A DNA stretch of 64,000 bases from Isoetes taiwanensis (lineage: Eukaryota; Streptophyta; Lycopodiopsida; Isoetales; Isoetaceae): assembly GCA_021234155.1 (NCBI GenBank), contig JAJEKV010000001.1, positions 15,244,245 through 15,308,244 on the forward strand, written 5' to 3'. Every line of letters begins with the position of its first letter. Within the stretch, counting starts at the first letter, position 1. Below, in pieces: positions 26,627 to 57,800 of the stretch. The translations under genes and the position numbers were made by a program. The notes under the pieces were generated by a model, which searched no databases, was not told the DNA's origin, and saw nothing but the letters and a program-made list of their open reading frames with translations.

Positions 26627-29600
26627 CTAAAATACAGCTTCCGTAGCATGGTTTTCATCTGCCAGCATCCCCTTTAGGCTTTTTGTTAGCCAAATAGCAG
26701 TTTCTCTTGGAGATACTTTGCTGTGTCCGAAAGGCCTTAGGACAACCGATAGCTCCTCAAGCCGTTGCTGAGATAGCAACTGGGCACATAGTTCTAGCAA
26801 GCCCTCCAGAGCTTCAGCTCTCTGTCGATATGACTTCACATCAAGTCCTCTAGCTTCAGTATCCCTGTTTGAAAGGTGATGTTTGGCAGTGGTAGAAGGC
26901 ACATCCACCTCAGGTTTAGAAAGGTCCAGGATAGAGTTAATATCAATGTCTGCAGGTAGATCACAATCAGTTGTAACTGCATCAGGCTGATCTGTGAGGC
27001 GAATAGTACTGTGCCTAATAACATGAATCACATCATTGATGACTGGTCTACTATGGACAGGTTGGGCCCTTTCCTGTATTTGAATGGTGCTTTTTACTTG
27101 AGATTTGTTGCCCGCATCGCTTTCACAATCCATACTGCCAGGAAACCCCCTATTGACTGTGTTCTGGGTTCCTTCATGTCGCTCTGTTCGCACATAAATT
27201 TCTTGGCTGTTTCTTACACAAGATAGGTAACTCTCAAGTTGACTAATTGAAGCAACATCATCAACACTACGTCTGTTACTCCTTTTCACAAGATGGTCTG
27301 CATCGCAAAGTGACTCTGTTGGAGTTATTGAAAATTTTGGAATCAAGTCGAACCTTGGAGCATTTACTGATACATCAGGAGACCTATTATTCCTTGAGCT
27401 TGACTTAACAGCATCATGGATCCTTGCAACAGCCTGGCTCACTTTGTTAGACAGAGAATAGGGCAAACTGTCAACATTTCCACTATTGCTGTCAGGCTTC
27501 CCGGATAATCTGCGTGCCACTGCAGGACTGGAAGTGTTTCTAGAGTGCAATGCCTTTACAGATGATTCAAGGACTTGAGGAACTATCCAGTTTCCATCAG
27601 GAGAATCTCCAGCAGCTGGTTTAGTTGCATTATTGGGAGGACTATTGGCATTTCGTGCAGTAGATGGTGGCGTTTTCTGGACTCCTGCAGGCTTAGGAGG
27701 GGGCATGGAAGCCCTTCTTCCAGTGGATGTGGGGGTAGTTGGTTTTGATTTTGGCACAGATGCCTTTTCAGTACTTGCACGCCTTGCTGGTGCACTAGAA
27801 GGAAGGTTATCAGATTTAGATTTGTTCCTTGGAGAGACATCAGTAATATGGGCCTGCAGCACCAATTATAATTTTTTTAGAAAGAAACTGTTCAAACAAC
27901 TTAGAAGTGCTACAAAAACTTTAGACAGCCAAATAAATATTCTTACAGGTTGTTTCAATGATGGAAGCTGCATTGTCTTCCGGGTCGGTTCATTCCTTAT
28001 TTTTGCCTTGCTTGAAGGTGTATGAGGAGTTGGAGTGGAAGCTGCAACGCGGCTTGGTGTGGATGATACATTACGCGTAACTCGTGTAAATCTAGCTGGT
28101 GAACTTTTAATTGGATATTTTTGGCAGCAATCCTCATCCCCATCATTGACTGATTCTGCTCCTATGCTGTGCATGCTGGTGCCATGGATGCTTTTCCGAA
28201 GTGCATCATCCTTCCAAGCAAACTCATCCTTGTCTTTGTTGAAAGTACCAGATCTCTCCTTCACAATGTTCTCATAGTGCAGTACTTGGGCAAAAACCTT
28301 GCCTGCTACTACATTGGCATTTGTTGTTGTTTCTGAGTGCTCATCATCATCGAAACCTGGCCTAGGGCTGCTTTTGTCATCTGAGCTAATACTATCTCTA
28401 CAACCACTTGACTGGCTGCTGTCATCACTTATATCGACACTGCATTGCCTGAAAAGGACATTTGAAAATCTTCGCTCTGAACTCAAGCCAGCTTGCATGC
28501 GGCACCGAGCTACATAAGGTTGCAAGAGGTGATGCCTTAATAGTTCTGCTGCCTATTGATCAAAGGGAATCAGACAGCTCAATCAACAAAGTGAATGCCA
28601 TCAAAGGGAAATTACTCACCGTGGGCCGATGCTCAGGATTTTTTCGCAGCATGCTTCGTATTATGCTCTTCCTATAGTTATAAAGGGCAACACGTTAAAA
28701 GACATATATAACTAAGACAAATATCAAGCCTATGCTGATAGTAACACTTACAAAGATGCAGAGTAGCTAGGTGGGATTGGACCAATTGTTGATTTGTTAA
28801 TTTTGGAGATCAGTCCCTGCATATCCTGAGGAAAGTAGAATCTGTTTCAACTACAAGCACGAGATACTTATCTATTGTTTAAAAGCTTAAAAGCTTGATG
28901 GAAACTGACTAAACACAAGTAGTTAGAATACACTAAAAGTATGGAGATGGCTGTAAGAAGCAGGGCATCAAAACAACTGGACGGAGAATTAAATATGATT
29001 CTTTTCCTCGCAGTCATCGCATGCCCATGCATCAGATTTTATCTCAGTCACGCAGGTGAATGTTGTTCCTTTTTCACCACCTAGCTTTTACAATTTCTGA
29101 CAAGAATCTTTGTTGAAGTTTGCCAATTAAAATTCCGGAGGAAGAAAATCGAACATGCCACATCGAACATGCCACATCAAGAGTATAGTGCTTCAAGAGT
29201 TAGAATACACTAAGAGTATGGAGATGGCTGTAAGAAGCAGGGCATCAAAACAACTGGATGGAGAATTAAATATGATTCTTTTCCTCGCAGTCATCGCACG
29301 CCCATGCATCAGATTTTATCTCAGTCGCGCAGGTGAATGTTGTTCCTTTTTTACCACCTAGCTTTTACAATTTCTGACAAGAAACTTTGTTGAAGCTTGC
29401 CAATTAAAATTCCAGAGGAAAAAAATCGAACATGCCACATCAAGAGTATAGTGCTACAAGAACCAATTTTACAAGCATTACTTCTAATGGATATGTCTTT
29501 CTACAAATATCGGAGGACCACGAGATAAGAAGACCACTTACAAAAGCTTTGAAGGCAGGCCTATGAGCACACATTTCATACATGCAACATCCTGCAAAAA

Positions 29601-41942: not shown

Positions 41943-42454
41943 GGTATAAATTTATACCATGCGGGAGCTTTGGAGGCATTGTATCAAACGATAGGAGGTC
42001 AAGTGGTATAAATTTATACAGGATGAGCTTAAGCGGTATAAATTTATACCACGTGAGTTCAAGCGAGTGGTATAAATTTATACTGCCTGTGAACTCGAGT
42101 GGTACAAATTTATAAATTGAACTCGAGTGGTATAAATTTATACCGCTTGCGAGCTTAAGCGGTATAAGTTTATACCATCGCCCCTCATGAAAAGGGCGGG
42201 AGCAGTATAAATTTAGACCGGAAGTATTTTACAAAGGAAGCCACGGTATAAATTTATACTACAAGTTCTCTTTAAATACGTTTTGCTCTAAATCCAATAC
42301 AATATAAAACAAGGAAATTTTATGAGACGGATATTTATTGTTGTTGCTTATAACGTGATTATTGTTGGTTAGAACGTGACAGGGCGCAGATATAACATGA
42401 TAATCATCTGGCTAAAACATGGCAGATGGTTTTGACGGTATAAATTTTTATACC
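41943..42454. repeat. array of ten AT-rich palindromes
   Basis: The 16-base palindrome GGTATAAATTTATACC, perfect or with one to a few changes, starts at 41943, 42005, 42035, 42069, 42101, 42129, 42161, 42204, 42245 and 42437 (the last with two extra Ts). The middle seven are spaced 28-43 bases, mostly 30-34. Spacers contain GCTTAAGC or ACTCGAGT, themselves short palindromes. The repeats are too regular for drift and encode no protein. Hairpin or cruciform formation, or binding of a dimeric protein, are possible roles but not shown. Confidence 0.95.
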
Positions 42455-49164: not shown

Positions 49165-49622
49165 GGATTGTCGTGTGTAAATATTATTCTTATTTTATCA
49201 AGAAAAATTTAATAATGATTCAATGGCAACTTATTTTTTTTTTGCATGAGTCCCATTTTCAGTCTGAGTCCCAAACTTCGAGATTTTGCCCACTTTAATT
49301 AAATGCGACTTCTCTTTAGTTAGTAGACACATGTCACTAATCAAAGGCTATTTTTTTGTCACGTGTTTGGATTCTAAGCCACATATATATAAAATATCAT
49401 TCATAGGCATACATTGAAAATCGATAGCACAAACCAAATCTACCCTAATCTACATCAAATATTCAAAATAGATCTCCCACAAATCCACCCTAATTTACAC
49501 CTTACATTTTTGTAGATTATATTAGTGGAAGTCCATTTAGGTAATCAACATGTTTTAATGCTTTTTTTCCTACCACGTATTTATAGTTTCAGCCACAAGT
49601 AATCTTTATAATATCATTCATC
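49165..49622. other. intergenic flank of the DNA transposon
   Basis: No gene. It contains the inverted-orientation copy of the AGTCGCATTTAATTAAAGTG phrase (49291-49310). It ends in ATT, the likely target-site duplication of the transposon. Confidence 0.5.
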
Positions 49623-49936
49623 ATTGGATGTAAATATGATAATGCTACCCAAAAAGCATCGTCCGGACAAGTGCTTTAGGTGCTTGAGGTGCTTTTTACT
49701 CGATGAATTTTCGTTCAACGACCTCGGGGGTTGTTACTCGAGAAATAGTATGCATGTTCCGGTTGGGGAGGGATCGATGACATGGATGTCCCAGCTTGTG
49801 GTGTCGAGCAATCCTCATGTTTGGCGGGATCTCAAGTTGGCGGGATTCTTGAGGAAAGTTTTTCTTTCTTGGATTGTCATTCTTCCCAAGCTCCGTTATC
49901 ATGGCTGAAAATTCTTTGGCAATTCTCAATTCTAAT

Positions 49937-49985
49937 TCCAATCCCAATCCCAATCCCAATCCAATCCCAAACCCAATCCCAATTC
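49937..49985 (+). repeat. (CCCAAT)n hexanucleotide run
   Basis: About seven imperfect CCAATC/CCCAAT units inside the left part of the transposon, before its transposase-like gene. Confidence 0.85.
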
Positions 49986-50073
49986 AGTTCTCCATTGCAC
50001 CTCCATTTTATGGCCAATTAAAGAAAGCCTTGATGATCAGGAAGAGGAGAATTTATCACGGAATTTGAAGCCA

Positions 50074-53054
50074 TGAGGAAAAGAGAATCGAGAAAGAGAA
50101 TGAAAGAAAGGGAAAAGGAAAACATTCCACCAAAGCGAGAGGAAGAGAAAACAATGGCTTAGTGAAAGAAGATTGCGGGGAACTCTCAAAAGAGTTAGAT
50201 GGTTCTTTTAATCACATTGTCGGGGAACGTTTCGAGGATTTGGATAAAGGGAAAGTTCTTCAAAGACTTTTCAAGAGAAACAAACATTTGCCATTGCAAG
50301 CGGATGTACGGATCAGGGGATATTGCTATAATGAAAACCATGATTGTGAATGTTAGAGAGACAATGCAGGCACAAAAATGCAAAAAGAACAATGATGTCC
50401 TCCAAAGCAAGAAGAGCACCCTTCAAATGGCAGCATCTTCGATAGGAGGGATTAATCAATCTGCAATTTCAAGGGTTCTATCTGTTCCAAGAAAAACTAT
50501 TGCCATGGCATTTAAAAGACGTATATTTGCAGAGTGTGAAGCTGGTCCTTGGTCAATATTTGGAAGGAAGAGAAGAAGTGACGCATTTTCAGCTGAAGAA
50601 ATATCCACGGTGAGGAAGTTTTGGGATGAAAATACTAGAGTCTCACCTTATAAGAAGCATGTGAGGAAGCATTTGGCTGAAAATGGTGATAAAATTGATC
50701 ATCCTATTCATTTGCTAGAGATTACACAGGTAATAGTTTCGACCAGAAATTTGGAATGTTGTGCACTAATTCTTTCATTCACTTTATAAAATAACTAAAT
50801 TTATTATTGTAATTGTGTTCAAGTACAATTTTACCTTGCTTTAAAGAAGGAACATCCTAATATAAAGATGTCCCAGCTGGCTTTTGAAAAACTGAAGCCA
50901 AGCTATGTAAAAAAACTTCAAGAAAGGGAGACTTGTTGTTGCCAATATCATTTGCACTTAGAATTTGCAAGGCAGGCCATCAACAATATGAGGATAGATC
51001 CTTATGGTGTTCATAAGGATTGTAAGTGTCAGTGCAAGGTTTGTGGACCAGGTCTAATCTGCATGGCTAAGGAGAACACCATCAGATCAAGTAGTGATTA
51101 TTGGAGAATAGTGGTCTGCCAAAAGGATGAGAGTGATGAGTGGCATAAGCATGCGTGTCTGATGTAGACTTGTACAAAATGTGGTTTAAAGAAGTGAGTA
51201 CATGGTTTCCTTTGTTTCAAACCTATAATTTTGCTTTCTATTTACCATGTTTGCTATAATGTATTGCGGTACGCCAACATGTCCTAAGGAGAGGAATAAG
51301 AGCAAGACTTACAATGTGAATTGGAAAGTATTTGAGAAGGTAATGACTTTCAAATTAGATTGGAAAGTGCATTTAGTGACTTCATTAAATATGATTCAAT
51401 CATATGACTTCCATATCAGGCTGATAAATTGGCCTTAACATGGCGGGTAGAAGTCCAAAGGAAGAAGACATTGAAGTCATCTAAGAAACCTCCAAAGGTT
51501 ACAAAATTGGCCTACAAATTGGGTAGTCCTTTTGAATTTAATGAGCATGCAAGAAAGACTTTGAAACCTTTTGTACCTCATAATTATAGAGCTCATTGGC
51601 AAGCCAAGGAATTCAGGAAATGCTTGGCAACACTTCAAGATGATACCATTGTTTTCTGTCATAGATTTTTGCTGAAAATTATGGATTTAAGATCAACAAG
51701 AAGCTCAATCTGTCATTGGCATCTTGACCGGTGTCAATTCTAGTGCATATAACCTACAGGAGGATGAAAAAGGAAGAAGAAGAAGAAAGAAAAAAGAAAG
51801 AGGAAGAGAACTCATGCAAGAAGAACAAGAACTTGGCCAAAGAGAAAAGGAAACAAAGTCTCCAAGGTATTGTGAAGAAAACTCATTTCTATATTAGTGA
51901 TGACAAATCACATGACACAGAATATGTCCAACATTGTCTACAAATGCATGCTGATTGGTTGCAAAGTATTGGAGTTGAATATAAAAAACATGCGTTTTGG
52001 AGTGATGGATGTTCTTCACAATTCAAGTCTTCGAGACCATTCCACTTTCTTGGTAGATTTTATGGGAGAATGGGCAAGGATCTTCTATGGAATTTTTTTG
52101 CTAGCTCACATGGGAAAGGTGAGCATGATGGTGCTGGAGCAGTTATAAAGAGGATACTAACTCAAGAGCAAATGAAGTATAATGGATGGAAACTACAGTG
52201 TGCAAAGGAGGTAGTTGCTTTTCTTAAATGGCACTTTGAAAATCATCCATCTGATCATGACATCAAAAGGTATAATTTTGTAGTGTTTTATAATTTTATT
52301 GCAGACATTTCAACACTTCAAGCACTGTCCAGCACTTAAAGCACTTGCTTTTTCATATTGTTACAGGTATTTCTGGGAGGTAGAGTCTTCAAAGATAGAT
52401 AGATCAGAAAGATTGGAATGCCATACTTTAAAGGGAACTCAATTGCTCCACTCCATAAGACCATGTGACAAGGAGAACACTTTGAAGGTAGCTTACAGAC
52501 CTTTGTCGTGCTTTTGCAACTACTGCATTCAATTTAAGTGGGACAAATGCATCAATATGAGTCGAATTGGTGTTTGGGCAACCATTGAGTTGAGGTTGAA
52601 GGATCCTAAGAATACAGGTGATAGCAATGATTTGCAAGAAGATGATGAGTATGATGTTGAGGAAGAAGAAGAGGATGAAGATGATGTAATTAGTTCTATG
52701 ATAGAAGCGGGTGACAATTTTGCTGTAAATGCTGAAGAAGGAAATGAAGAAGGGGTAGATTTTTATGTACTTAGATGCACTGAAGCAAAGAATACTTTGC
52801 TAGAAGATTATAAGGATGGATGGGGAAATGTATTTGGGATTGAAGAAGTTATTGTGTCAGGACATTATTATAAACAAATTGATGGTGGTCTAAGGTTTCA
52901 ACTATTGCAGAATAAGCTAGTGGCCAGTGTATACAGCCATCTCGTTAGACTTTCTAAATTTGACATGATTGCAGATGAAGATGACTCAGACTTGTATTTC
53001 ATGGCAGAAGAAACTTGCCAGCAGATCATGAGTAGTCTACCACCTGCATCATAG
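50074..53054 (+). pseudogene. transposase-like gene, spliced, with stops and frameshifts
   Basis: Probable exon blocks are about 50199-50729, 50847-51180, 51246-51340, 51421-51725, 51727-52269 and 52367-53054; the last intron (52270-52366) is GT-AG with matching phase and joins HDIK to RYFWEVESSK. The N-terminal part has a helix-turn-helix-like segment (AISRVLSVPRKTIAMAFKRR). A Cys-rich stretch follows (ETCCCQYH, KDCKCQCKVCG). Next come an apparently frameshifted FAENYG site near 51664-51685, HFYISDDKSHDTEY, WSDGCSSQFK (Asp at about 52004-52006) and NFFASSHGKGEHDGAGA. The tail has FCNYC, then a Glu/Asp-rich run and ends at 53054. I recall a similar motif order (DFAENY, SDG..QYK, SHGKG..DG) from unclassified transposon-like proteins of animals. 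Three acidic sites suggest an RNase H-like DDE fold; this is inference. A TAG at 51165-51167 and frame changes near 51660 and 51725 show this copy is damaged. Confidence 0.75.
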
Positions 53055-53059
53055 AAGGT

Positions 53060-53550
53060 AATTTGTACAAAATCATTTCTACAGTTTAAATGTGGAAATC
53101 ATTTCTGTGTCAATCTGCCAAATTGAGGCATATCTACAGTTTAAATGTGAAAATACATTGAAATAGCTAGACAACAATACTTTACTACTGAAAATGTAAC
53201 TGAATGAAAAAAGAGCAAGACACTGAATGTTAAAAGAGCAAGACACACAAAATTGAGCTGAACTGTGAATCTGTTAGCTTGAGGCCTGCAATGTCTTTAA
53301 AGTATTGGACAAACTTGAAGCAAGAATAACAAAATAACAAGATAACAAAACATAACAGAATTGAGGCAAAGTTTTACTCGTATAGTATTACAAAGTGTTT
53401 CACAAAATTGAGGTCTCAGCCTCTATGTCAAAGTTTTCACAAAATTGAGGCATATCTGCACTCATATACTATTACAAACAGTTTCACAAAATTGAGGTCT
53501 TAGCCTCTATGTCAAGGTTTTCACAAATTCACATGTATTTACAAGAAGTA
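53060..53550. other. convergent intergenic region of the transposon
   Basis: The space between the two convergent gene ends. A unit of about 80 bases containing CACAAAATTGAGGTCT(C/T)AG, CCTCTATGTCAA and GTTTTCACAAA is present twice (about 53402 and 53484), with a further partial copy of GGCATATCTGCA or CATATCTACAG upstream. No coding sequence. Confidence 0.6.
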
Positions 53551-53555
53551 TTCTT

Positions 53556-54325
53556 CTAGGCAATAGTCAAATATTTCTTCATCTGCTCCAACTGATCAGC
53601 ACTGAAATGTTTATCAAAACCATCCACTAACCACTTAATCTGATCCTTGCAGTAAGCTCTAACTAATAATCTCTGATTCTGACCAATTTGTTGCTGAAAT
53701 AGTGCATCCAGAACACCTAGGGATGTTCTTGTAAAAGCCTCTGCCCTAGAATTTATCTTCAAAATTGCAGAAAGGTCTTCAACCTGTGCAACTTGTCTAA
53801 TCATTGGAAGCAAATAAGAGTTAAGAATATCATCATGAGGATCACTCATAAAAGTAGGCACCATGATGGATGTGAATGGTGGGGACATGTATGTCTTGTA
53901 TACTTCATCATCTGCAAGAACCACATTATTTCCATATTGTGGAAAAGCTTCATACACCTTATGAAGTGGCTTCATGAATACTGGATTTGCAGATTCGAGT
54001 GGCCATTTGAAAGGCATCTCATCACAATATTTCTAGTCCCACACAAATACAAGTTTACCTTTGGTAAAAGGACAGACAACATCAAGAACTTCTGCAACAT
54101 TGAATGCATTCATGGACCAAATTGCAAGGTCGAATAGTCTGGAGGCTTCCTGCAAGAATGTGTGAACACCTGGCCTCAACACAACCAATTTGTTAGTGGT
54201 TGATGTTCTCAAAAGCTAAGTGCTAAGCCGTCTCAGGTCTTCTCTTATTTGATTAGTTCTTCTATAACTCTTTACCAGCACGCCATTGAGATCTAGTATC
54301 AACAACTTCTTTTTTATAGGTACAA
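53556..54325 (-). pseudogene. HAD/FCP1-like phosphatase domain carried by the transposon
   Basis: One minus-strand frame runs from a likely splice acceptor at 54325 to the stop at 53556. HAD motif I is KKLLILDLNGVLV (Asp-Leu-Asn-Gly at 54293-54282). VLRPGVHTFLQEASRLFDLA and IWSMN form the motif II region. GKLVFVWD then KYCD, VFMKPLHKVYE (lysine motif) and NNVVLADDEVYKTYMSPPFT (motif IV, paired Asp) complete the FCP1/NIF-type domain. This order and wording match the plant HAD proteins with an FCP1-homology domain (DLNGLLV, WDQ, LLLDDSPYK). Such enzymes dephosphorylate Ser/Thr in proteins. About 90 further residues follow (SRAEAFTRTSLGVLDALFQQ) with no family assigned. Two in-frame TAG codons break it (54216-54218, 54033-54035); the second stands where relatives have Gln. 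The domain is the C-terminal exon of the transposon's second gene. Confidence 0.75.
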
Positions 54326-54339
54326 CTTGCACATCAGAA

Positions 54340-54700
54340 CGCCTAATAAGTTAAATAACATGCAATTCAGTGAACTATTCAAGAAAAGAGTACAATTAAA
54401 ATTTAAGAGTAATAACCTCGAAGTTACATTGCTGAGTTGCAAATCAGTTACAATTGTACTTTGCAACTCGGTACACCTGATGTTCAGATAATTAATTAAG
54501 TGAATACAGGATCAATAGATCCACAAAAACTTCAATTTAAATTAAAAAGTCATAAACCTGGAAGTTAAATTGGAAACAATTAAATCCTCATCAAATTGTA
54601 CTACTTTGTGAATCCCTGAACATTAAAATATCATTTATGAATTAGTGCTCTCAAAGAAATATTTGAATTTCCTCTAAGAGCATCCATAATTGCTGCAAAG
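54340..54700 (-). other. likely introns of the transposon's second gene
   Basis: AT-rich stretch between the HAD exon and the Lys-rich exon on the minus strand. Phrases such as CGAAGTTACATTGC...CAGTTACAATTGTAC recur loosely. No coding signal. Confidence 0.35.
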
Positions 54701-54703
54701 TTA

Positions 54704-55577
54704 CTATTTGCCTTCATTGTGTAGAGATTTTGCTGCAACATTATCATCTTGTTCAAAATCTGTATGTGCACCAGTAGGATCTACATTTGCAACATCTTCA
54801 AGGGTGGACCTTATATTCTCCATAATTGTCTTCTCAACACCCTCTTCTTCCCCGTCTTCATTCACATCGATGTGCATTCTCCGTCTCAATGGATACTTTC
54901 TACCCTCCCCAATTTTTTTCTTGTTCTGCCTGGCCTCAGTCCCTTTTTTCTTGCCAGTCCCAACTTCAACCCCTTTGGTCTTGCTTATTGTCCTTCCCTT
55001 TCTTCTTCTCAACTATAGCATCCTTGTTTGGTGCTGAGTGCTTTTGTTTCTTTCTGTTTGGAGTATCCAACACACATTCAACTTCACTCTCATTAAGACC
55101 TGCCTCCGAATCATCTGCCTTCTCATCCCCAATTTTACCACTACTTCTCAATTGCCTTAGACTCAACATCTGAACTTGATCATCTAACTCTGCAAGATCT
55201 GGCTCAAAATCAGCATCCCTTGCATGTCTCAGCCTCCTCTTTTTTACGCTGAGGAAGGGGGCAGCTTTCGAGGCGAGAACATCTATTAGACCTTCAATAT
55301 CAGGCCGAGCTGTATTTGATCCCAAATCAGCCCGAGCTGTCTTTGATCCCACATTTAATTTAGGATCAAAAGAAGCAACTTGCTCTATTCCTGTTGGAGT
55401 ACTCATACCAAGTTCAACATAAAGGTCTTCAAGAATATTACATTCACATTTCAAACATCTCCCTTCCTTCAACAATGCAGCAAACATCACATGATATTCA
55501 TGTTCACAATCAAGAAGTATGGACATCTTGTATTTATCATGAAAACTTAAACCACAAGCAATACAATAACTTTGCAA
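54704..55577 (-). pseudogene. second transposon gene: partial RING-like and Lys-rich exons
   Basis: The minus-strand frame at 55577-54966 opens MQSYCIACGLSFHD and carries Cys5, Cys8, Cys24, His26, His29, Cys41 and Cys44: seven of the eight ligands expected for a RING-H2-like domain (the residue after the second His pair is not Cys). Acidic and basic low-complexity sequence follows (FLSVKKRRLRHARDADF, RKKQKHS, a nuclear-signal-like run). The overlapping frame 55012-54704 continues in similar style (TISKTKGVEVGTGKKKGTEA, RRRMHIDVNEDGEEEG) and is probably joined by splicing or was shifted by an indel. Together with the HAD exon downstream it could make one protein with a Cys/His cluster, basic linker and phosphatase. 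The exact exon joins are not resolved. Confidence 0.5.
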
Positions 55578-55811
55578 AAAACGTGGTAGCTTTCTTTTGA
55601 TGGTGTTGATGCAGAAAGGAGAGTTGGTGATCGCCTCGGACTTTCAAGGTGGCTAGCATGTTCTTTTCTTTGCATTTAGCTCAACATCATTTTTCAGTTA
55701 TCGAGCTTCCAATGACTCCTTCTTCACAAGCGAAGTGGATCTCGGGTTTGCAAAGCGGACTCCAAAGATTCACAGGCATACTCTTCAAACATCAATTTCT
55801 TTTCCAATTAT

Positions 55812-56523
55812 GTGATTTCTAACTCCAATTCCTTTGTACTAATCAAAGCTCTCTTCTCGGCAATACTAGACTTAAGCTTTTCCATATTACTTCTTTTTTC
55901 AGACAACCTTTTGAAAATTTTATCATTTGATTTCTCATCAGTGACCGGGGCTAACAACAATATTTTGCATTTCTTTTCCCATCTCAGCCTTTTTTATCTC
56001 AAGTTTCTTTAAGTTTTCTGTCACTAACTGCAGGTTATACTTCAAATAGGTCTGATCTAGAATAGGCTTAGGATTTTCTTTTTTGCAGAAATATCGGGTT
56101 TGGTATCAATTTCAGCTTTTGCTTTTTGTTCCTTTTTTCTCGGCTTTTGCATTTCTTGTACATCATAACACATTGCACCATATGAAGCCCAATTTATCGA
56201 TGACCCCGGGATCAAGCAATCCTTGAGGGGGCAATTTTTCCAAACAAAGGCATAAGCAACTTTGTTTTCTTACTTCATTGTTACAAAGCGCCATGCGGGT
56301 AAAATACTCTCAATAAGCTTTCCAATTTTCCTCTCAAATGTGGTCGAACAAAATGAACCTTGATTGCACGGACTTTGAGTTGAAAGGTTCTGCCAAGCGA
56401 TTCCCATTGATCCTTTGTAACTTGACTTGCTAGCCAATTGTACTTCAAATGGGGCTGCGGACCCTCGTTCGACAAACTATGCAAAGCAACAAAATCCTCA
56501 TTTATTCTTGCCTCTTCTACCAT
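55812..56523 (-). pseudogene. second transposon gene: N-terminal and coiled-coil part
   Basis: Frame 56523-56281 reads MVEEARINEDFVALHSLSN and then LASQVTKDQWESLGRTFQLK, ending at a stop. Further along the minus strand, about 56215-55812, other frames encode a Lys/Glu-rich coiled coil (EMQKPRKKEQKAKAEI; ENLKKLEIKKAEMGKEMQ; FKRLSEKRSNMEKLKSS; IAEKRALISTKELELEIT). Frame changes occur between them. They lie between the right terminal repeat and the RING-like exon and in the same orientation, so they are probably the start of the same gene or a third small gene. Confidence 0.4.
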
Positions 56524-56762
56524 TTACCGCTTGATTGGCGAAGATCAGTTCGGATAAGCGATCTATGTTGTGGGCGGGGCAAAGAAATTGGGACATCGAA
56601 TGATTGAGGAAAAGCTTTAGAAGGCGGGGCAGGAGGTGAGGTACTAGAAGGTATTTATACCGTGCGGTCACGAATTCTGTCGACCACAAGTGCTTTAGGT
56701 GCTTTTAGGTGCTGAGTGCTTTCGCGCTTTTTTGGGTAGCATTATTATATTTACACCCCATT

Positions 56763-57604: not shown

Positions 57605-57800
57605 TTATTGTGGACCATGGCCACGGTGCAAAAATGACTGTTATACAATTTATGGAGGTGCCTACTTTGCACCGTGGCCACGGCGCAAAAACTACTGTGT
57701 CCACAATTTGTGGAGGAGCCAATTTTGCACCGTGGCTACGGTGCCAAATTTGCTCTTACAATTTTACTAGGAGTGCATATTTTGCACCTTGGCACATTGC
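57605..57800. repeat. 56-bp minisatellite with palindromic core, cluster 1
   Basis: Units centred near 57615, 57675, 57732 and 57786 contain the 18-base palindrome GCACCGTGGCCACGGTGC, or forms with one to three changes, flanked by TTT and AAA. It is followed by an ACAATTTATGGAGGTGCC-like spacer. Spacing is about 56 bases. Cluster 2 at 59.46 kb shares the same unit. Confidence 0.85.

Follow-up and report, generated by a model that had tools for sequence, protein, structure and literature searches.

A decayed DNA transposon of Isoetes taiwanensis with a convergent phosphatase gene, most likely of Sola or a close relative

Why should a DNA transposon carry a phosphatase gene beside its transposase, and among which transposons does such an element belong? 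The question is raised by an element at positions 49626-56758 of a stretch of 64,000 nucleotides from the lycopod Isoetes taiwanensis (contig JAJEKV010000001.1; the whole stretch is hereafter the window). An earlier note on this DNA had described a DNA transposon, complete and with a convergent gene pair: one gene for a transposase that it left unplaced and one for an HAD/FCP1-like phosphatase. This description was sound: the element holds a transposase gene and a convergent gene for an HAD/NIF phosphatase, and it is present in many copies in its host. We are fairly confident that it is a decayed full-length cut-and-paste DNA transposon from a large and old lineage carrying an accessory phosphatase gene, a lineage for which Sola, or something closely related to Sola, is the most likely placement.

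Target-site duplications (TSDs) and empty sites show that the element was inserted. Its terminal inverted repeats (TIRs) are 30 bases long, much as first described, with 28 of the 30 bases identical, and a separate inverted-repeat scan of the window gave a pair of 33-nucleotide arms at 91%. The 30-mer end pattern matches the window twice, at the two ends of the element, and has no match in 100 shuffles. The left boundary stands as first drawn, and the right one moves from 56759 to 56758 because the duplication is CATT, four bases long; the ATT initially taken for a 3-bp duplication is its final three bases. We compared the flanks of 17 two-ended insertions: the window copy, twelve copies of the same family (L001-L012), two short elements (L021, L022) and, from two divergent families, a single copy each (L023, L025). 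The twelve were picked because both of their ends were listed at a fitting distance, and other possible pairs (e.g. on C933 and C1094) were left out. Flanks are identical over four bases in 17/17 insertions and over five in none, and 4-mers agree in 0.8% of cases at randomly shifted positions. The 17 duplications include 16 distinct 4-mers (TATT occurs twice), and TTAA is not among them.

The assembly of the host spans 1,658,258,908 bases in 1110 contigs, and 37.08% of the genome is given as transposable elements in the available part of the source (PMC8566536). The expectation of further copies with the same ends is borne out in it: the 33-base left-end motif, with at most 2 mismatches, has 275 matches (137 forward and 138 reverse), against none for the reversed-pattern control. 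A related subfamily makes up many of the one-mismatch rows. Full-length copies have the whole layout in common and are about 90-97% identical where longer pieces align; some copies have internal deletions. The short elements L021 and L022, of 1.7 kb, have the same ends and 4-bp TSDs and are non-autonomous derivatives. Uninterrupted sites, at which the earlier note proposed to look for a single ATT, were found for the two insertions whose flanks we joined, the duplication being of four bases instead of three. For L009 the junction is spanned at all 40 scored places with 90-99% identity, at 37 of them over all 240 bases; for L023 it is spanned at 40/40 places with 97-99% identity. These empty sites lie in other members of repeats and are not alleles. 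The insertion site of L009 is a related transposase gene, of family F8. The element at L023 splits a DUF7869 (PF25273) gene, the parts of which lie at L023 606-1580 and 8900-9877. As the uninterrupted site matches so many places so closely, this gene is itself a high-copy repeat; perhaps it is a transposase, with a GHTHEDVD motif.

Is the phosphatase peculiar to the family of the window copy? Our searches gave at least 138 matches to the transposase and at least 149 to the HAD domain, both totals being lower bounds because only the best candidates were scored. The pairing count took 135 and 145 of these, the dropped ones being short second fragments. An HAD locus lies within 6 kb downstream of 64 of the 135 transposase loci, at 0.7-3.3 kb, where 0.07 are expected by chance. 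All 64 are convergent and none lies upstream. Among the 71 transposase loci without a listed partner, three were examined over 10 kb (L026, L027, L028), and the HAD domain is present in each, even though their transposases are only 55-58% identical to the query. It is also present in F1, F2, F3, F4, F5, F7 and F9 among the nine families examined for it, and in F9 (L054) transposase, C-terminal region, RING finger and HAD domain follow the same layout. Family F6 was read over the transposase only. Judging from these sequences, the association of transposase and phosphatase is old, since the phosphatase gene holds its convergent position next to transposases that share only about 55% identity with that of the window. 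A recent capture of a host phosphatase by the window family alone, one form of the host-gene pick-up that the earlier note had considered, is rejected in view of the 64 convergent pairs and of the divergent families carrying the domain. An older capture of the gene is conceivable.

The second gene, open reading frame 2 (ORF2), is composed of an N-terminal domain, a coiled-coil-like stretch (recognized by eye), a finger with RING-H2 spacing, a charged stretch and the NIF-type HAD domain. That it is a minus-strand phosphatase gene was rightly seen from the letters: Pfam NIF matches the window in two pieces (E 1.1e-6 and 1.3e-4) and passes its curated cut-off in the less damaged copy L012 (71.0 bits vs 21.8, E 1.2e-19). 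Pfam zf-RING_2 matches L054 with E 2.9e-4, under the curated cut-off, and L009 with E 0.41. The solved structures closest to the HAD domain by sequence are UBLCP1, CTDNEP1 and SCP1. Five residues never vary across 13 aligned HAD domains: Asp20 (motif I), Ser79, Lys128, Asp148 and Asp149. They presumably have the catalytic roles of their counterparts in HAD phosphatases. The second Asp of motif I is replaced in all 13, by Asn in 12 and by Tyr in one. The domain resembles NIF/FCP1/SCP-type phosphatases (PF03031) in its NIF match and in its conserved Asp, Ser, Lys and Asp-Asp, but differs from them in having DxNG for DxD in 12/13 rows, in being encoded by a transposon and in standing behind a RING-like finger.

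Where its frames are open, the transposase gene codes, in order, for a helix-turn-helix-like segment (again recognized by eye), for a cluster of Cys and His, for a catalytic region in one exon marked by DFAENY, SDGC and HGKGEHDG, and for a C-terminal region. Decay is plain in the window copy: 12 stops lie within its catalytic match and 2 within its HAD match. Two of the motifs first reported in it, WSDGCSSQFK and SHGKGEHDG, lie in the window frame at 51728-52339; the third, FAENYG, is present in the DNA of the window in a frame shifted relative to the upstream part of the exon, and is unbroken in other copies. We aligned 19 catalytic exons of seven families, grouped by ourselves, and numbered their residues after the exon of L009. 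D205, G206, C207, H245, D246 and G247 are invariant, E244 is nearly so, and D91 is present in all rows covering it and nearly invariant in a smaller alignment set. In a structural model of the L009 exon the strands and helices come in RNase H order: D91 lies on core strand one and D205 at strand four, and E244/D246 immediately precede the helix after strand five. A second model, built for an exon in which a charged insert is naturally missing, is no better. Among the matches listed, Foldseek and VIA-align retrieve mainly RNase H-type proteins with these models (RNase HII, Argonaute, SPARTA, HIV RNase H, integrase, Mos1 and Metnase), with other folds such as sugar kinases and designed proteins mixed in. 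Because models and fold matches are weak, the RNase H fold is supported rather than established. According to alignment and models, the transposase likely has a DDE/D RNase H-like core, with E or D as its third acid.

Both genes are conserved across divergent families. The ratio of nonsynonymous to synonymous substitution rates (dN/dS) between families lies at 0.09-0.16 in the transposase, compared with 0.18-0.41 in the HAD domain, for computable pairs, many transposase pairs being saturated and giving no value. Within families it is 0.17-0.34 in the older pairs and about 0.4-0.8 in near-identical copies, as expected of decaying copies. To the extent that such ratios can tell, they show purifying selection on both domains between families. 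In the trees of both domains F1, F7, F2 and F3 come in a roughly similar order, deeper support being weak, and the phosphatase diverges in about the same order as the transposase. The retention of the domain through such deep divergence suggests a phosphatase that is of use to the element, not a passenger picked up recently.

How might it help? In a transposon of this kind, the transposase would attach to the TIRs by its helix-turn-helix-like and Cys-rich parts, bind the subterminal CAAGTGCTTTAGGTGCT repeats as well, cut the element out, and insert it elsewhere with a stagger of four bases by means of its DDE/D RNase H-like core. The ORF2 protein would be an accessory nuclear factor acting near the element and raising its success. 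Its predicted phosphatase activity would most likely be directed at a chromatin, transcription or transposase target. The features concerned are given in Table 1.

Table 1. Features of the element and its flanks, in positions of the window
Feature	Position	Strand	Basis and remarks
Left TSD, CATT	49622..49625	n/a	Flank comparison
Left TIR, GGATGTAAATATGATAATGCTACCCAAAAA	49626..49655	+	End comparison; GGGTG is the start of most other copies
Subterminal repeat, CAAGTGCTTTAGGTGCTTGA	49668..49687	+	Repeat scan
Transposase gene remnant, multi-exon	50010..53054	+	Limits inferred; start set by eye from the less damaged copy L012
Helix-turn-helix-like segment, GINQSAISRVLSVPRKTIAMAFKRR	50448..50522	+	By eye, no tool match
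Exon with Cys/His cluster (CCCQYH...CKCQCKVCG...C), possible zinc binding	50799..51167	+	By eye
RNase H-like catalytic region (DFAENY, SDG, HGKGEHDG), broken frame	51387..52330	+	E 5e-117 and 1e-36
Transposase C-terminal region (Cys cluster, VGDNFAVNAEEGNEEGVDFYV-type segment)	52284..53054	+	Found too in F8, F9, F10
ORF2, convergent to transposase	53556..56523	-	Limits inferred
HAD/NIF-type phosphatase domain	53565..54362	-	E 1e-125; Pfam NIF
RING-H2-like finger	55404..55616	-	E 5e-38
ORF2 N-terminal domain, no known family	56146..56502	-	E 3e-25
Subterminal repeat, CAAGTGCTTTAGGTGCT	56687..56703	+	Same strand as left copy; inverted relative to internal copy 52331-52347
Right TIR	56729..56758	-	End comparison
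Right TSD, CATT	56759..56762	n/a	Flank comparison

Several observations weigh against our interpretation. Families F8 (L051) and F10 (L056) keep the N-terminal domain and the RING finger of ORF2 with no detectable HAD domain, so that, of the nine families examined, seven show the HAD gene and these two do not. Besides, when 150 F8-like transposase loci were compared with 74 of the 151 NIF matches, no pair came within 15 kb of each other. The phosphatase is thus not indispensable. Two further F8 loci (L048 with L052; L053) show only a minor part of the two genes where they were read, and are uninformative. In the tree F8/F10 stand beside F4/F6 with 59% support, which weakly favours loss of the HAD domain over its late gain. 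Four HAD loci without a listed transposase were read over about 4 kb; two turned out to have one (L044, L046) and two have none there (L045, L047). The HAD gene of L055 has no transposase of the window-element kind in the 7 kb read. In motif I this NIF/HAD gene (L055 4182-5108) likewise has DxNG, there are many NIF loci with comparable scores, and the open reading frames upstream of it have no Pfam match; the gene may belong to another element type. The between-family dN/dS values are close to saturation, and the Asn at the second position of motif I may weaken HAD catalysis. The structural models are poor, with a mean predicted local distance difference test score (pLDDT) of 53 for L009 and 50 for the second model, best Foldseek E values of 0.015 and 0.007, and Z of at most 7.1 for all matches, other folds included. 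Finally, Sola as the most likely placement is an analogy drawn from described features.

What do these features say of the place of the lineage? The label "unplaced" is apt in that no convincing relative of the transposase was found by sequence in Pfam or the PDB; weak listings for EMC3_TMCO1, Pro-kuma_activ and La-related protein 7 were set aside as chance matches. Transposase patterns matched 95 stretches of viral contigs and 64 of prokaryote genomes, none of which was confirmed, and six motif strings have no match in the papers searched. The label gives way in that the 4-bp TSDs, the likely DDE/D RNase H-like core and the seed-free plant host point to Sola, by description and not by sequence. 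In the available part of PMC10741241, Sola elements have DDD transposases, 4-bp TSDs and variable ends, and occur in moss and apparently uncommonly in flowering plants; partial sources also record them in ferns (PMC6890710, PMC6786969). The 4-bp duplication of that description (PMC10741241) is found in all 17 copies, and for its DDD/RNase H core D91, D205 and E244/D246 of L009 are conserved and the strand order fits, in models that are weak. The likeness extends to TIRs, an apparent three-acid core and a size within 2-9 kb, but the NIF-phosphatase/RING second gene is absent from the descriptions of Sola1-3 in the parts available.

Kolobok and piggyBac also make 4-bp duplications, but these are TTAA only, as far as the available part of PMC9587614 describes them, unlike the varied 4-mers found here. 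The same part of that source gives C/DxxH between the second D and the last E as the mark of the hAT, P, MuDR, Kolobok and Dada group. Nearly all of our rows have A(S/T)(S/A)H at the His ahead of the third acid and none has C or D three residues upstream of that His, so this mark is lacking. Ginger transposases are related to Gypsy integrases and have an rve domain. No integrase-core family is among the Pfam matches of 19 members with E up to 10; a relation to Ginger may exist all the same.

The best surviving alternative, with a chance somewhat short of even, is a plain case of Sola in a seed-free plant: the second gene would be a usual accessory gene of that superfamily, catalogued before but missing from the openly searchable papers. 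Reports of Sola elements come from moss, ferns and a brown alga, with 4-bp TSDs and DDD transposases, and in the available part of PMC12477816 the element Sola1-1_Ec32 of Ectocarpus has, like ours, a transposase and an accessory gene on the opposite strand. Yet, that element is of 21.5 kb and its accessory protein has ParB-like and DNA methyltransferase domains, with no phosphatase described, instead of HAD and RING domains. Nor did the open-licence literature, searched by titles and starts of abstracts, yield a DNA transposon paired with an HAD, NIF or CTD (carboxy-terminal domain) phosphatase; subscription papers and Repbase were outside the scope of this search.

A bolder proposal goes beyond our data, and we make it tentatively, as rather unlikely to be right. 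The lineage would be a deep and abundant plant clade, forming a superfamily by itself or a fourth group within Sola, and its hallmark would be a partner protein with a RING-H2 finger and a phosphatase of the type acting on the CTD of RNA polymerase II, which would control transcription of the element, its silencing or its transposase; a sister clade would have lost the phosphatase and kept the RING half. Less likely still is a distinct unnamed superfamily with only the 4-bp TSD in common with Sola. The failure to find convincing Pfam or PDB-sequence matches, or confirmed viral or prokaryotic relatives, agrees with it, as do the many divergent families within one genome. However, Sola itself would be expected to show just this combination in a seed-free plant: a 4-bp TSD with what looks like a three-acid core. 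This type of transposase is also probably not limited to Isoetes taiwanensis, as there are anonymous animal proteins with DFAENY and SDG motifs, a lead rather than a test.

It is improbable that a single capture from the host brought in the phosphatase as a neutral passenger, since carried along. F8 and F10 did grow numerous without a detectable HAD domain, and the host has many other NIF genes. But purifying selection between families, the conserved HAD residues and the fixed position and orientation of the gene all speak against it, and the association predates families only about 55% identical. That host genes were caught between chance inverted repeats can be dismissed almost outright, being refuted by the duplications in 17/17 insertions and by the numerous copies that share these ends and this order of genes, and no support for it was found.

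If the lineage is indeed a transposon lineage with an accessory phosphatase, its interest extends beyond Isoetes. DNA transposons are known to encode proteases, DNA-binding proteins and dioxygenases as accessory proteins. The available part of PMC12477816 places a methyltransferase among them too. A phosphatase of the kind with RNA polymerase II or nuclear-envelope proteins as its substrates, kept beside a transposase through deep divergence, would be a new route of host management. Families of the same lineage with and without the phosphatase domain offer a natural comparison within one genome. Repeat libraries based on flowering plants may miss a major DNA-transposon lineage of seed-free plants.

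A few other features were seen in the window and elsewhere. Tandem palindrome arrays of the type TTTTGCACCGTGGCCACGGTGCAAAA lie at window 57607-57748 and also on another contig (L050 3781-4093, L051 5438-5762), the L051 array being known only from repeated translated frames. Tandem repeats at window 41995-42175 contain the palindrome GGTATAAATTTATACC. At window 26627-28552 there are two long adjoining minus-strand open reading frames, of 412 and 228 amino acids, with no Pfam match.

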